From Acuticoccus sp. MNP-M23 (GTDB taxonomy: Bacteria > Pseudomonadota > Alphaproteobacteria > Rhizobiales > Amorphaceae), in contig NZ_CP133480.1 of assembly GCF_031195445.1 (NCBI RefSeq), positions 992,001 through 1,056,000 on the forward strand: a DNA stretch of 64,000 nucleotides, in the 5' to 3' direction. The notes beneath the pieces were generated by a model. The model saw only the letters and a list, made by a program, of their open reading frames with translations, was not told where the DNA came from and made no database searches. Below, piece by piece: positions 19,893 through 36,941 of this stretch (the stretch's first letter is position 1; each line of letters begins with the position of its first letter). Both the position numbers and the translations under genes were made by a program.

Positions 19893-21455
19893 TCAGGGGC
19901 AGCCCTGCTCGGCCCAGGTTCGGATCGCCTGTTTGAACTCGCCGCCATAGGGGTGCTGTTTCTTCAGCATCGCGGCGCGTTCCGGCGTCAGATAGCTCTT
20001 GCCCTGGTCGCAAAGGTTGGCCCGCTCCCACTGGTGGCACCCCGAACAGGTGCGCGTTGCCCAGAAACTCTCCGGCAAACCCTCGATCGGGGGATAGACC
20101 GGATGGCCCTCGATCAGCGTTTCGAGTGACTTGCCGCCAATTTCCGGAAGGGCTGCGGCAAGCGGGCTGTCGAAGGTGATTTCGCCGCTGGTGTCAGTGG
20201 TTTCTGCAACGTCCGGCGGCGGCAGTGCGGAAAATTCGATGCCCGGCGCATCGGCGGCCGGGGGCGGCGCCGGCGCAGCGTCCGCCAGTGCCGCAATTTC
20301 GGCGCGCGCCAGGCTGGCAAACACGCCAGCCGGATAGGCGGCAAGGTAGGCCTCGTAGTCAGCGCGCAGACCGCTTTCTTGTGCTCTTGCCAGAAGGGTC
20401 TCTTCCGGTTCGCTGGGGATGACCGGGGCGGCCGCGGGCGGCGCGGGGGTCACGTTCAAAGCACGCTCTGCATCGGGTGCCAGCGCGGCGACCTCGGGCG
20501 GTGCGAGCTCGGCCCGCAGCAACCGTGCCGCATCGGCAAACCGTCCGCTGGGATATGCGCTCAGAAACAGGTCGATCTGCGCAAGGTCGCGCTGGGCCGA
20601 GACACTGGCCCAGAACCGCTCCTCCGCCAGCGCGGCGGGGTCCACCGGTGCTTCCTCCACAAAGGTGAACTCGCGGGTGAGCGAGGACGTATCCCACGGG
20701 GTCTGCCGGCCGCCTGTCGTCTCGATCACCTTGATGCGCACGTTGCGGAACACCTCCTCGATGGGTGCGCCGGGCTCGATCATTTCTTCGGCCAGCGCCG
20801 CGGTGAACGGGCTGTTGTCGCCCGCACCGTCGAACGCGACCGCGCCCGGTGCCGTCGCAAAGGCGAGAAACGAGCCGGTGGGCGCCCGCATTTCGGCAAG
20901 GCCGTTGTCGTCGAACGCCGGAATGGCGGAAAACGGGTTGTTGCGGCACGCGTCGAGAATGAAGATGTTGGTGCGGTTTCGCGCCGAACTCATCTGCCTC
21001 AGGATGGAATTGGCCTCCACCGCCACAAGGTCGAGGTCGGCCGCGTCGGCAATATCGGTCTCGACCGGCAGGAGGTAGTTGGCGCCGAACGACTGGACGG
21101 CGTGGCCGGCATAGTAGAACAGCCCCGTCGCATCCGGCCCCGCACGGCGCAGTGCCCGGCCGAATTCAGCCACGGCCCACTTGAACCGCACCAGCTGCGC
21201 ATCCTGCACCAGCGTCACGTCAAAGCCTGACGCGCGCAGGCGTTCGGCCACCAGCGACGCATCGCGCGCCGGATTTTCAAGCTCCGGCACAGGGCCGGCT
21301 GCATAGGCCGAGTTGCCGACCACCAGCGCAATGCGCACCGGTGGTTCCGCGGCAACCGCGCTCGGCTGGCCGCACATTAACAACGCGATCGAGCAGACAA
21401 TGCCTGCAAAAACTGAATTTTGGATCATGGCGTCTACTTTATGGACAGCTTTCAT
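19893..21455 (-). CDS. Caspase-like (peptidase C14) exported protein with CXXCH motif
   Basis: 520 aa. A signal peptide (hydrophobic stretch ending SAVAA) precedes a caspase p20-like domain with IALVVGNSAY and the catalytic dyad His in YYAGHA and Cys in ILDACRNNP. A Pro/Ala-rich middle contains two similar segments (IDLFLSAYPSGRFADAA and YEAYLAAYPAGVFASLA). The last 51 residues begin with CSGCH, formally a c-type haem site, and include two more Cys. The enzyme would be an exported metacaspase-like protease; substrates are unknown. The start is uncertain: 21455 (MKAVHKV) is used, and 21428 and 21491 are also open. Confidence 0.82.
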   Translation of the reverse strand: MKAVHKVDAMIQNSVFAGIVCSIALLMCGQPSAVAAEPPVRIALVVGNSAYAAGPVPELENPARDASLVAERLRASGFDVTLVQDAQLVRFKWAVAEFGRALRRAGPDATGLFYYAGHAVQSFGANYLLPVETDIADAADLDLVAVEANSILRQMSSARNRTNIFILDACRNNPFSAIPAFDDNGLAEMRAPTGSFLAFATAPGAVAFDGAGDNSPFTAALAEEMIEPGAPIEEVFRNVRIKVIETTGGRQTPWDTSSLTREFTFVEEAPVDPAALAEERFWASVSAQRDLAQIDLFLSAYPSGRFADAARLLRAELAPPEVAALAPDAERALNVTPAPPAAAPVIPSEPEETLLARAQESGLRADYEAYLAAYPAGVFASLARAEIAALADAAPAPPPAADAPGIEFSALPPPDVAETTDTSGEITFDSPLAAALPEIGGKSLETLIEGHPVYPPIEGLPESFWATRTCSGCHQWERANLCDQGKSYLTPERAAMLKKQHPYGGEFKQAIRTWAEQGCP

Positions 21456-21638
21456 CTTACCCGATCCAGTTGGACACATCAAAAACAGCAATGCGTGACG
21501 CTTGTCACCACGTGGCCGATGTTCGAAACTTCAAGCCTCGCAGGTAAGCGACAGGGCCTTCATATTCCACCGCAGAATGAAAACACGGCTGGGGGTCCAC
21601 CCATCTGTGACGCGCTCGTTATTTATAGGAGGAAATTG

Positions 21639-22742
21639 ATGTCACATCGTATTTTTGCCGGAGTTGTTGCGGCTGCGCTGGCGTTTGCGGCACCCGCATC
21701 AGCGGCAACGCCGTTCGAAGGCGGGTGGACGCTGGATGCCGCCAGCTCCGGGCTGCGCTTCCAGTCGGTCAAGAACGAGACGAAGGTGGAGACCAGCTCG
21801 TTTGCCACCCTTCAGGGCGCTATCGACGAGAGCGGCACGGCCACGGTCACCGTCTTTCTGGATTCGGTGGACACCAAGGTGGACCTGCGCAACGTGCGCA
21901 TGCGGTTCCTCCTGTTCGAGACCTACCAGTTTCCCGAAGCCAGGGTGACGGTGGAGATCGACCCCGCAATGCTGGACGATCTGCCGCAGGTGCGCCGCAA
22001 GGTGATCGAAGTGGACTACACGCTCGATCTTCACGGCCTCCAGAAAGAGCTTCAGACGGAAATTGCGGTGACCCTTCTGTCCGACGACATGGTCTCCGTC
22101 GCCTCCCATGCGCCCATCTCGATCGCCACATCGGACTTCGGGATGGACCTCGGCGTCACCAAGCTGGAGGAGGCGGCCAGCGTCGAGATCATCCCGTCGG
22201 CCAGCGTGAGCTTCGACTTCATCTTCCGCCGCAGCGGACCTGCGCAGGAAGAGCCCCAGGTTGCGGCGGCAACGCGCGGCCAGCCGTCCGGCGCGGTAGT
22301 CACCCCTGTGGCCGCCGCAGCGTCGCCCGCGGCACAGCCGGCCTCCCTTGCGCTGGAAGCCGAAGGGAATTTCTCGCCAGAGGCCTGCATCGGCCGCTTC
22401 GAGGTGATGAGCGAGGCCAACGACATCTACTTTGCCGTCGGCAGTGCCCGTCTTCAGGCCAAGAGCCGCCCGTTCCTGGACAGCATCGTCGCCATTGTGG
22501 AGCGCTGTCCGGGCATGAATCTGGAAGTGGCCGGCCACACCGATTCAGACGGCAGCGCCGCCAAGAACCAGACGCTTTCGGAAAACCGGGCCGCCTCCGT
22601 GCGGCGCTATTTCACCGACAGCGGGATTGCACCGGAGCGGATCCTGACCGTGGGCTACGGCGAGACCAGACCCGCCTTCCCCAACAACACGAAGCGCAAC
22701 AAGTGGCGCAACCGGCGGATCGAGTTCACCGCCCTCCAGTAA
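21639..22742 (+). CDS. YceI-like and OmpA-like fusion lipocalin/peptidoglycan-binding protein
   Basis: 367 aa. Signal peptide 1-22 (ending PASAA). Residues 25-195 match YceI (WTLDAASSGLRFQSVKN at the start, FPEARVTVEID in the middle), a periplasmic lipocalin-like barrel that binds isoprenoid-type lipids in known cases. After an Ala/Pro linker comes an OmpA C-terminal domain (IYFAVGSARL, then LEVAGHTDSDGSAAKNQTLSENRA, then VGYGETRP), which binds peptidoglycan. It would be a wall-tethered lipid-binding protein. AGGAGG lies 7 bases before the ATG, a strong site that decides the start. It is divergent from the caspase-like gene and convergent with hisN. Confidence 0.85.
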   Translation: MSHRIFAGVVAAALAFAAPASAATPFEGGWTLDAASSGLRFQSVKNETKVETSSFATLQGAIDESGTATVTVFLDSVDTKVDLRNVRMRFLLFETYQFPEARVTVEIDPAMLDDLPQVRRKVIEVDYTLDLHGLQKELQTEIAVTLLSDDMVSVASHAPISIATSDFGMDLGVTKLEEAASVEIIPSASVSFDFIFRRSGPAQEEPQVAAATRGQPSGAVVTPVAAAASPAAQPASLALEAEGNFSPEACIGRFEVMSEANDIYFAVGSARLQAKSRPFLDSIVAIVERCPGMNLEVAGHTDSDGSAAKNQTLSENRAASVRRYFTDSGIAPERILTVGYGETRPAFPNNTKRNKWRNRRIEFTALQ

Positions 22743-22770: not shown

Positions 22771-23577
22771 TCAGGCCAGCGCCGCCACCAGCGCTTCGGC
22801 CAGCGACGGGTCGCCCACGGCAAATCCGTCGCCCTTGTAGCCAGACAGGATTGTCGGCTCGATGTCTGCCCCATGGCGGTCGATCAGCGCGCCGCCCGCC
22901 TCCCGCACAATGGGCACGAACGGGGCAATGTCGTAGGGCTTCAGCCCCGTGTCGATCACGATGTCCACCAGCCCGGCGGCCAGCAACGCGTACCCGTAAC
23001 AATCGGTCCCGTAGCGGACCATGCGCACGGTATCGGTCAGCGCCTGCATCTGCCGCGCGATGGCCGGGTCGAAGTTTTTCGGGCTGGTGCAGGCGACAAT
23101 GGCCTCCGACAGGTTGGCGCAGCGGCGGGTCCGGAGCGCAGTGGTGCCCCGCACCCCGTCCAGGAACGCGCCGTCGCGCGAGGCATAGAAGCGCTCGCCC
23201 ACGAAGGGTTGTGCCATCATGCCAAGGTCGACCCGCCCGCCCGCGCCGAGAGCGATCAGCACGCCCCATGTGGGAAGGCCCGCCATGAAGCCGCGGGTGC
23301 CGTCGATCGGATCGAGCACCCATGTGCGGCCGCTGGTGCCGTCCACGCCGGCAAACTCCTCACCCAGAATGCCGTCGTCCGGCCGCTCGGCCTGCAATCT
23401 GGACCGGATGGCCTTTTCCGCGGCCCGGTCTGCGACCGTCACCGGGTCGAAGCCCGCCGCGTCCTTGTTCTCCACCTCCGGCAGGGCACGAAAGTGGGGC
23501 AGGATCACATGGCCGGCGTCATCGGCGAGCAAATGGGTAAGTTCGAGGTCGTTTTCTGAAGTGTGCATACGTGCCAT
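22771..23577 (-). CDS. hisN: Histidinol-phosphatase of the inositol monophosphatase family
   Basis: 268 aa. It has the IMPase metal motifs: GEE near residue 72, WVLDPIDGT near 86-94 (DPIDGT), and PYDIAPFVPIVREAGG (WDxxA-type) near the C-terminus. The sequence pattern and length match the HisN subgroup used for L-histidinol-phosphate dephosphorylation in actinobacteria and many alphaproteobacteria; a general inositol or sugar phosphatase role cannot be excluded. ATGs at 23577 and 23568 are both possible. It is convergent with the YceI-OmpA gene, 28 bp apart, with no clear terminator. Confidence 0.8.
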   Translation of the reverse strand: MARMHTSENDLELTHLLADDAGHVILPHFRALPEVENKDAAGFDPVTVADRAAEKAIRSRLQAERPDDGILGEEFAGVDGTSGRTWVLDPIDGTRGFMAGLPTWGVLIALGAGGRVDLGMMAQPFVGERFYASRDGAFLDGVRGTTALRTRRCANLSEAIVACTSPKNFDPAIARQMQALTDTVRMVRYGTDCYGYALLAAGLVDIVIDTGLKPYDIAPFVPIVREAGGALIDRHGADIEPTILSGYKGDGFAVGDPSLAEALVAALA

Positions 23578-23779
23578 GCGTTTGATGCAAATGGGAAATA
23601 TTAGGCGGCGCGTTGATAGCCCGCCATTTCAGGCGCTTGATTTTACTTTCATTTTTTTGGTCGCAAATTAAATCGCCCGCTTTTCGACCTTGATTGCCTG
23701 CCATGCAGGCAGAAAGACGCAATGTTCACGAAAGCGGCGGCTTGACGATCGCGGCTCACGGGGCCAATTGTTGCAGCGC

Positions 23780-23863
23780 GGCACGACGGTTGTTGTGTCG
23801 CTGCCCTCCTTGGGCGTTTCCTCCCTAGACTTCGGGCCGCTCTTCGGAGCGGCCTTTTTTTTG
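23780..23863 (+). ncRNA. Candidate trans-acting sRNA of the alpha-r8 (MmgR) type
   Basis: It lies in a 328-bp gap between two minus-strand genes but points the other way. At 23818-23827 it has TTTCCTCCCT, the 10-mer I recall as strictly conserved in the alpha-r8/MmgR sRNAs of rhizobia. Next comes a strong hairpin GGCCGCTC-TTCG-GAGCGGCC (23836-23855) and eight T. A TTGACG box at 23742 with a weak -10 (CAATTG near 23766) would start RNA near 23778, giving about 85 nt against 77 nt for S. meliloti MmgR. MmgR limits polyhydroxybutyrate granules. The CU-rich 10-mer can pair with ribosome-binding sites. The 5' end is an estimate. Confidence 0.65.
23836..23863 (+). terminator. Rho-independent terminator of the candidate sRNA
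   Basis: Perfect 8-bp GC stem with a TTCG tetraloop followed directly by eight T. It serves no protein-coding gene on this strand, which supports a short RNA upstream of it. Confidence 0.85.
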
Positions 23864-23905
23864 CCCGATAAAAGAAAGCCGGGTAAGAAGGTGCAGCGGA
23901 CGCCC

Positions 23906-24811
23906 CTACTCCGCCGCCAGCGGCCAGTCGGCATCCGACGAGCCGCGCCGCCTGAACACATCCATCACCGTTTCGCACACTGCCGTCATCTGGTCCTGCA
24001 TCCGCCCGAAGGATCTGGAGCGGGTGTAGTACGCCTCGTCCATATAAAGGGCGCGGTTGATCTCCAGTTGCACCGCGTGGACCAGCGGCGGCCGCCCGTA
24101 GTGCTCGGTGATAAAGCCGCCCGCATAGGGCCGGTTGCGGCCCACCACAAAGCCCACTTCGCGCAAGGCGGCAGCCAGCGCATCGGTCAGCTCCGGCGCG
24201 CAGCTGGTGCCGAACCTGTCGCCGAGGATCACGTCGGGCCGGGGACCGGCGCCCTCCCCCATTGCCCGCACGGCGCCCGATGGCATCGAGTGGCAGTCGA
24301 CCAGCACGCATGCGCCGAAATCGTCCACGGTGGACTCGATCAGCTGCTCCAGCGCGTGGTGGTATGGGTCGTACAGCGTCGCGATCCGTGCGCTGGCCTC
24401 GGACGCCGGCAGCTTGGCGCCGTAAATTTCCTGCCGCTCGCCCACGATGCGGGCAATCACGCCGAGCCCGCCGGCCACGCGCGGACTGTCCACCGCCACG
24501 GCGAGATCCAGCGGCGCGTCGAACATCTCCGGGTCGAGTTCGTTGGCAGCGCGGTTGAGATCCACGTAGACGCGCGGAAAATTCGCCTTCAGCATCGGCG
24601 CGCCCAGCTCGATCACCCCGGCGAACAGGCCGTCGACAAACGTATCCTCGGAGCGGCGGATGGTGTGCCGGTCCAGCCGCGAGCTTCGGATGAGGCTGCG
24701 CGGATAGGCATTGCCCGAGTGCGGCGCATTGAAAACAAAGGGCGATGTCCGGCGCGCCGGTTCCAGAATCTCGAACGGGGGGATCTGCGTGTAATCGTCG
24801 ACGAGCCTCAT
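23906..24811 (-). CDS. N-formylglutamate amidohydrolase
   Basis: 301 aa, of the FGase family (COG3741/HutG-like). FVFNAPHSGNAYPR (residues 25-38), RRSEDTFVDGL, CVLVDCHSMPSG (His and Asp metal ligands) and NRPYAGGFITEHYGRP with VQLEINRALYM are family hallmarks. It hydrolyses N-formyl-L-glutamate (last step of one histidine degradation route) or related N-formyl amino acids, using a metal. No hut genes are adjacent, so this may be a general deformylase. 193 bp separate it from divergent cpdR. Confidence 0.85.
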   Translation of the reverse strand: MRLVDDYTQIPPFEILEPARRTSPFVFNAPHSGNAYPRSLIRSSRLDRHTIRRSEDTFVDGLFAGVIELGAPMLKANFPRVYVDLNRAANELDPEMFDAPLDLAVAVDSPRVAGGLGVIARIVGERQEIYGAKLPASEASARIATLYDPYHHALEQLIESTVDDFGACVLVDCHSMPSGAVRAMGEGAGPRPDVILGDRFGTSCAPELTDALAAALREVGFVVGRNRPYAGGFITEHYGRPPLVHAVQLEINRALYMDEAYYTRSRSFGRMQDQMTAVCETVMDVFRRRGSSDADWPLAAE

Positions 24812-36520: not shown

Positions 36521-36849
36521 ATCATCCCCCAATTTCATCGTGGTCTTGGCGAGGCAACACGTCGGTCTGCTTTTTGGTTCCGTTCGGGCGCCGAGCGGCG
36601 ATGAACTTTTTTGACGCAGATTAAAATCCGGGCATTTATTGCCGTGCGCGCCACTGACGACCCAACCGCATCACGCGTGGCTTGCACGCCGCTGTCCGGC
36701 CGCCTCGGATCATCCGGCGCGATGCGGTCAGCATGGTTGCCGGACCCGTCATCCCGTGCCGCGGCACACGTGGACACGCTTTCCGATCGGACGCGGGCAG
36801 GCAGCGTATTTTTGTTGGCATTCGCCGGCGCGGGTCTCGCGACCGGCGC
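36521..36849. other. Gap upstream of rpoH
   Basis: About 330 bp with no supportable gene; the short frames on both strands have no family resemblance. It is AT-richer around 36600-36645 (ATTTTAATC-type stretch on the minus strand), where the rpoH promoter probably lies, but no convincing -35/-10 pair could be fixed by eye. Confidence 0.5.
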
Positions 36850-36880
36850 AAAAAAAAGGCCGCAGCGCTGGGCTGCGGCC
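36850..36880 (-). terminator. Rho-independent terminator of rpsA
   Basis: On the minus strand GGCCGCAGC, loop of five, GCTGCGGCC, followed by seven or eight T. It lies about 60 bp after the rpsA stop. Confidence 0.9.
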
Positions 36881-36941
36881 TCGTTGTGGTGGACACCAAT
36901 GGTCCGGAAGGGCAGCGCCGTGAGGCGCTGACCCAGCCGAC

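Follow-up and report, generated by a model that had tools for sequence, protein, structure and literature searches.

A short intergenic region in the window (i.e. the whole 64 kb stretch of Acuticoccus DNA that was analysed) raises the question of whether it encodes a small RNA and, if so, to which family this RNA belongs, how it is controlled and on what it acts. An earlier note had proposed an MmgR/alpha-r8 sRNA, transcribed against both neighbouring genes and ending in an ideal terminator with a TTCG loop. The locus contains the following features:

22771 to 23577, minus strand: gene of the inositol monophosphatase family (hisN/suhB-like), running divergently from mmgR (Pfam PF00459, E 2e-47)
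23796 to 23869, plus strand: RF00519 suhB/mmgR match (covariance-model search, 77.2 bits)
23834 to 23862, plus strand: rho-independent terminator with a TTCG loop and T8 (terminator scan and fold)
23906 to 24811, minus strand: N-formylglutamate amidohydrolase (FGase) gene (Pfam PF05013, E 7e-75)

The proposed arrangement was found as described, with a plus-strand unit lying between two minus-strand genes. Reading of the sequence placed TTGACG at 23742-23747 and the 10-mer TTTCCTCCCT at 23817-23826, both on the plus strand; the letters of the 10-mer were those given by the earlier note, whilst its position is one base to the left of the 23818-23827 reported there. The terminator consists of a 9-pair stem (23834-23855) with the TTCG loop at 23843-23846, followed by T8 at 23855-23862. 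The T-run of this hairpin is present on the plus strand only, indicating that it does not serve either flanking gene as an ordinary intrinsic terminator, in agreement with the claim that neither gene needs it.

The Rfam family RF00519 is suhB, now described as mmgR, and represents the alpha-r8 family; MmgR is a regulatory sRNA known from alphaproteobacteria and tied to carbon storage. The covariance search that the earlier note had proposed returned a full-length match (model positions 1-77) with a score of 77.2 bits, as compared to a gathering score of 41 bits, and an E-value of 3e-14 for the 64 kb window, thereby upholding the proposed identity. The sequence UUUCCUCCCU is identical to the published 10-mer that defines the alpha-r8 family, as the earlier note had stated, and adjacency to the FGase gene, observed both in the window and in relatives, is the typical location of this family (PMC12559287). 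Only one RF00519 copy above the cut-off was present in the 5.16-Mb genome. Copies above the cut-off were detected in 47 of 61 genomes, a set made up of the own genome together with relatives at the level of genus, family and order (the host genus Acuticoccus belongs to the Hyphomicrobiales), and the whole unit was near-identical in an alignment of six Acuticoccus congeners. On these sequence comparisons, the unit is clearly a sound, ordinary member of the known MmgR (alpha-r8, RF00519) family. No earlier family member was found for the genus Acuticoccus in the literature covered. Elsewhere, in Bosea and Ancylobacter (L061, L094 and L106), three mmgR copies with differing PhaR-box patterns were observed within ~1.3 kb beside the FGase gene.

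The predicted transcript and its parts are as follows:

23777 to 23862, plus strand: predicted MmgR transcript of ~86 nt with three stem-loops (promoter spacing, fold and conserved 5' hairpin; both ends predicted)
23778 to 23801, plus strand: 5' stem-loop, variable in sequence and conserved in structure (fold, pairing count and shuffles)
23802 to 23816, plus strand: conserved second hairpin UGCCCUCCUUGGGCG (covariance match, fold and alignment)
23817 to 23826, plus strand: invariant single-stranded 10-mer seed, anti-Shine-Dalgarno (sequence, fold and alignment)

From the predicted start, the fold runs through the 5' hairpin, the second hairpin and an open stretch to the terminator, such that the 10-mer is unpaired between the conserved hairpin and the terminator, in keeping with the family pattern of a single-stranded 10-mer behind a weak hairpin. 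The fold energy of 23777-23862 was 5.4 s.d. below that of dinucleotide shuffles. From the second hairpin through the terminator, the seven Acuticoccus copies were almost identical in the alignment. In the 5' hairpin, 97% of cells were paired among these copies with one GC/CG compensatory pair, covariation counts that are too few to decide, and across 109 copies in the order the 5' segment had a mean z of -3.1 relative to mononucleotide shuffles. Because the 5' hairpin keeps its pairing while its sequence varies, and because the promoter spacing fits as well, these analyses suggest a predicted transcription start near 23777.

Possible targets were sought through complementarity to the seed. The 10-mer of Caulobacter SisA pairs with the ribosome-binding sites of its targets and represses them, including a TonB-receptor mRNA, whilst no direct base-pairing target is known for S. 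meliloti MmgR and its mode of controlling PHB is described as an open question (PMC12559287). The exact complement of the 10-mer (i.e. AGGGAGGAAA) preceded the ATG of two genes only in the Acuticoccus genome, both encoding transporter binding proteins, and of the 28 genes that carry it across the genus and family, about 22 were, by eye, also binding-protein genes. Using a home-made gene caller on a 1.64-Mb systematic sample of the genome, at least 8 nt of seed complement were observed before the start codon in 12 of 53 binding-protein genes as compared to 7 of 1167 others (odds ratio 48, p 5e-13). Together with the repression of a TonB-receptor gene by SisA, these counts favour a reading in which MmgR here mainly represses TRAP/ABC solute-binding proteins, replacing a missing AbcR. 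The signal was, however, equal in genomes lacking mmgR (i.e. those with no copy found even under relaxed filters), where 18 of 27 DctP genes had at least 7 nt of complement as compared to 34 of 60 in genomes with mmgR, indicating that the purine-rich site is a general trait of binding-protein genes that needs another cause and that sequence alone cannot identify MmgR targets. Shine-Dalgarno controls with other purine sites did not reveal this generality. A transporter regulon inferred from seed matches was thus withdrawn, and a mainly transporter-directed function is possible, though we consider it somewhat doubtful. Across the Hyphomicrobiales, TRAP and other transporter binding-protein genes (L306-L415) carry an unusual GGGAGGA(A) Shine-Dalgarno sequence, with or without mmgR. 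Near mmgR itself, a YceI-OmpA fusion gene (start 21642, ORF 21420-22742, plus strand) has the Shine-Dalgarno sequence TAGGAGGAAATTG, an 8-nt match to the complement of the MmgR seed.

Genes of PHB metabolism were compared in the same manner. The Shine-Dalgarno sequence of phaB in the window genome is AGGGAGGA, and at least 7 nt of seed complement were present in 16 of 36 phaB genes from 36 genomes as compared to 3 of 26 phaA genes. Divided by the presence of mmgR, the phaB counts were 15/31 with and 1/5 without; phaB is put forward as a candidate direct MmgR target at the level of a hypothesis only, because the match was found after the fact and only five phaB genes were available from genomes without mmgR. 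A GGGAGG ribosome-binding site was observed in 17 of 36 phaB genes and in 2 of 26 neighbouring phaA genes (L336-L355 and L416-L435). The phasin mRNA was rejected as a direct seed target, as the 10-mer pairs only with GGAGG and the gene ranks 500 of 1220; the hairpin loop CCUCCUU could pair with this mRNA, yet pairs well with many genes.

Control of the gene was examined in the promoter region, which comprises:

23742 to 23747, plus strand: -35 element TTGACG of the mmgR promoter (sequence; TTGACG(AT) invariant in six congeners)
23752 to 23760, plus strand: upstream PhaR box (box A) in the spacer between -35 and -10, decayed to CGGCTCACG (alignment and motif scan)
23765 to 23770, plus strand: probable -10 element CAATTG with a 17-bp spacer, CATTTG in most congeners (judged from sequence and alignment)
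23772 to 23780, plus strand: downstream PhaR-type box (box B), intact with the sequence TGCAGCGCG and located over the predicted start (motif scan; fits YGCRNYGCR)

In S. meliloti, PhaR (AniA) represses mmgR through the motif YGCRNYGCR, with gel shifts showing promoter binding (PMC12542648), and AniA/NtrC control is said to depend on a dyad between -35 and -10 (PMC8401924). Box A occupies the position of this dyad. A scan for YGCRNYGCR in 110 distinct mmgR promoters from relatives across the order found at least one box in 106 and at least two in 77, counts that are not independent as the copies are related; in random control stretches from the same loci, one or more boxes occurred in 5.2% and two boxes in 0.3%. 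Usually, box A lies in the spacer and is followed ~20 bp downstream by box B, around the start. No mention of a second PhaR box at mmgR promoters was found in the literature covered, with the primary MmgR papers outside its scope, and the second box is not claimed as a discovery.

The window departs from this pattern. Both boxes are kept in the six congeners, whereas box B alone is intact in the window, where box A reads CGGCTCACG in place of the TGCRCCGCR found in all six. The S. meliloti dyad between -35 and -10 is thus absent in intact form, and its decay may have weakened or abolished control by PhaR. Loss of PhaR control in this species through loss of the upstream operator, with the family member itself retained, is nevertheless rather unlikely: box B is intact, several other copies (L016, L029, L031 and L074) also keep box B alone, and the phasin promoter of the same genome has a perfect PhaR box (L118:2055). 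The reverse state, with box A alone, was observed in several Rhizobiaceae and related copies. Membership of the RNA family does not depend on sharing the regulatory circuit that MmgR has in S. meliloti.

The genome contains phaR, phaC and one Phasin_2 gene. Among the 61 genomes, phaR was present in 45 of 47 with mmgR as compared to 6 of 14 without (Fisher p 4e-5); these genomes are related, and phylogeny was corrected for only to the extent of taking one complete genome per family, which gave 34/35 with and 4/10 without mmgR (p 2e-4). This co-occurrence supports a lasting functional link between the two genes, as judged from gene content, and is not a test of mechanism. The S. meliloti circuit includes a negative effect of MmgR on PHB and phasins. 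A role of MmgR in PHB storage in Acuticoccus would be transferred from S. meliloti, with indirect support from the PhaR boxes and from the co-occurrence with phaR.

Two further readings concern the identity of the unit and are both practically refuted. Membership of the AbcR (alpha-r15) family of anti-Shine-Dalgarno sRNAs could be argued from the anti-Shine-Dalgarno stretches of AbcR and its partial similarity to suhB (PMC7143759), but RF02345 (ar15/AbcR) had no match at E <= 0.001 in the own genome or in nine genus and family relatives, AbcR adjoins lsrB and not the FGase gene (PMC8844928), and the covariance models decide against it, given 77 bits over the full length of RF00519. A chance terminator beside a pyrimidine stretch, as exemplified by a sub-threshold RF00519 match at 36843-36920 on the minus strand (32 bits) that lacks the 10-mer, is the rpsA terminator and is no second copy, is refuted by the score, invariant core, conserved promoter and synteny of the unit.

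We are therefore left with a single MmgR (alpha-r8, RF00519) gene with a sigma-70-type promoter, a predicted RNA of ~86 nt, an anti-Shine-Dalgarno block probably on Hfq and probable repression by PhaR, which as a whole is very probably the best explanation of the locus. By analogy with S. meliloti and Caulobacter, the promoter at 23742-23770 would drive the transcript with its three stem-loops; the exposed 10-mer would pair, probably on Hfq, with purine-rich ribosome-binding sites, and this pairing would block translation. PhaR, as a PHB-sensing repressor, would probably silence the promoter via the box at 23772-23780, and binding of PhaR by PHB granules would release it. A broader proposal joins three parts, namely that mmgR of the Hyphomicrobiales is controlled by a pair of PhaR operators spaced by about two helical turns, with the downstream one over the start, that MmgR affects PHB storage through a block on the translation of phaB (acetoacetyl-CoA reductase) and that the upstream operator was lost in the window; it is speculative and quite unlikely to hold in full.

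With MmgR of S. meliloti the Acuticoccus unit shares the 10-mer, three stem-loops, the terminator, a PhaR-type promoter site and a single copy per genome. It differs in length (~86 nt predicted as compared to 77 nt reported) and in the decay of the spacer dyad, with the second box over the start being kept. SisA-D of Caulobacter crescentus (alpha-R8) share the 10-mer seed, and SisA also adjoins the FGase gene, but that species has four copies as compared to one and the SisA-D promoters have no common motif. AbcR1/AbcR2 (alpha-r15, RF02345) share the logic of an anti-Shine-Dalgarno seed, whilst differing in structure, seeds and neighbours, and gave no match in the window genome.

The gene adds one well-supported member, in Acuticoccus, to the known alpha-r8 family; the two-box promoter is a small addition, as is the loss of box A in this copy. 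As the failed transporter test warns, a seed match to a purine-rich Shine-Dalgarno site is not in itself enough to identify a target of an anti-Shine-Dalgarno sRNA. The two-box promoter, the co-occurrence with phaR and the phaB candidate lead to short, cheap tests of how MmgR controls PHB.
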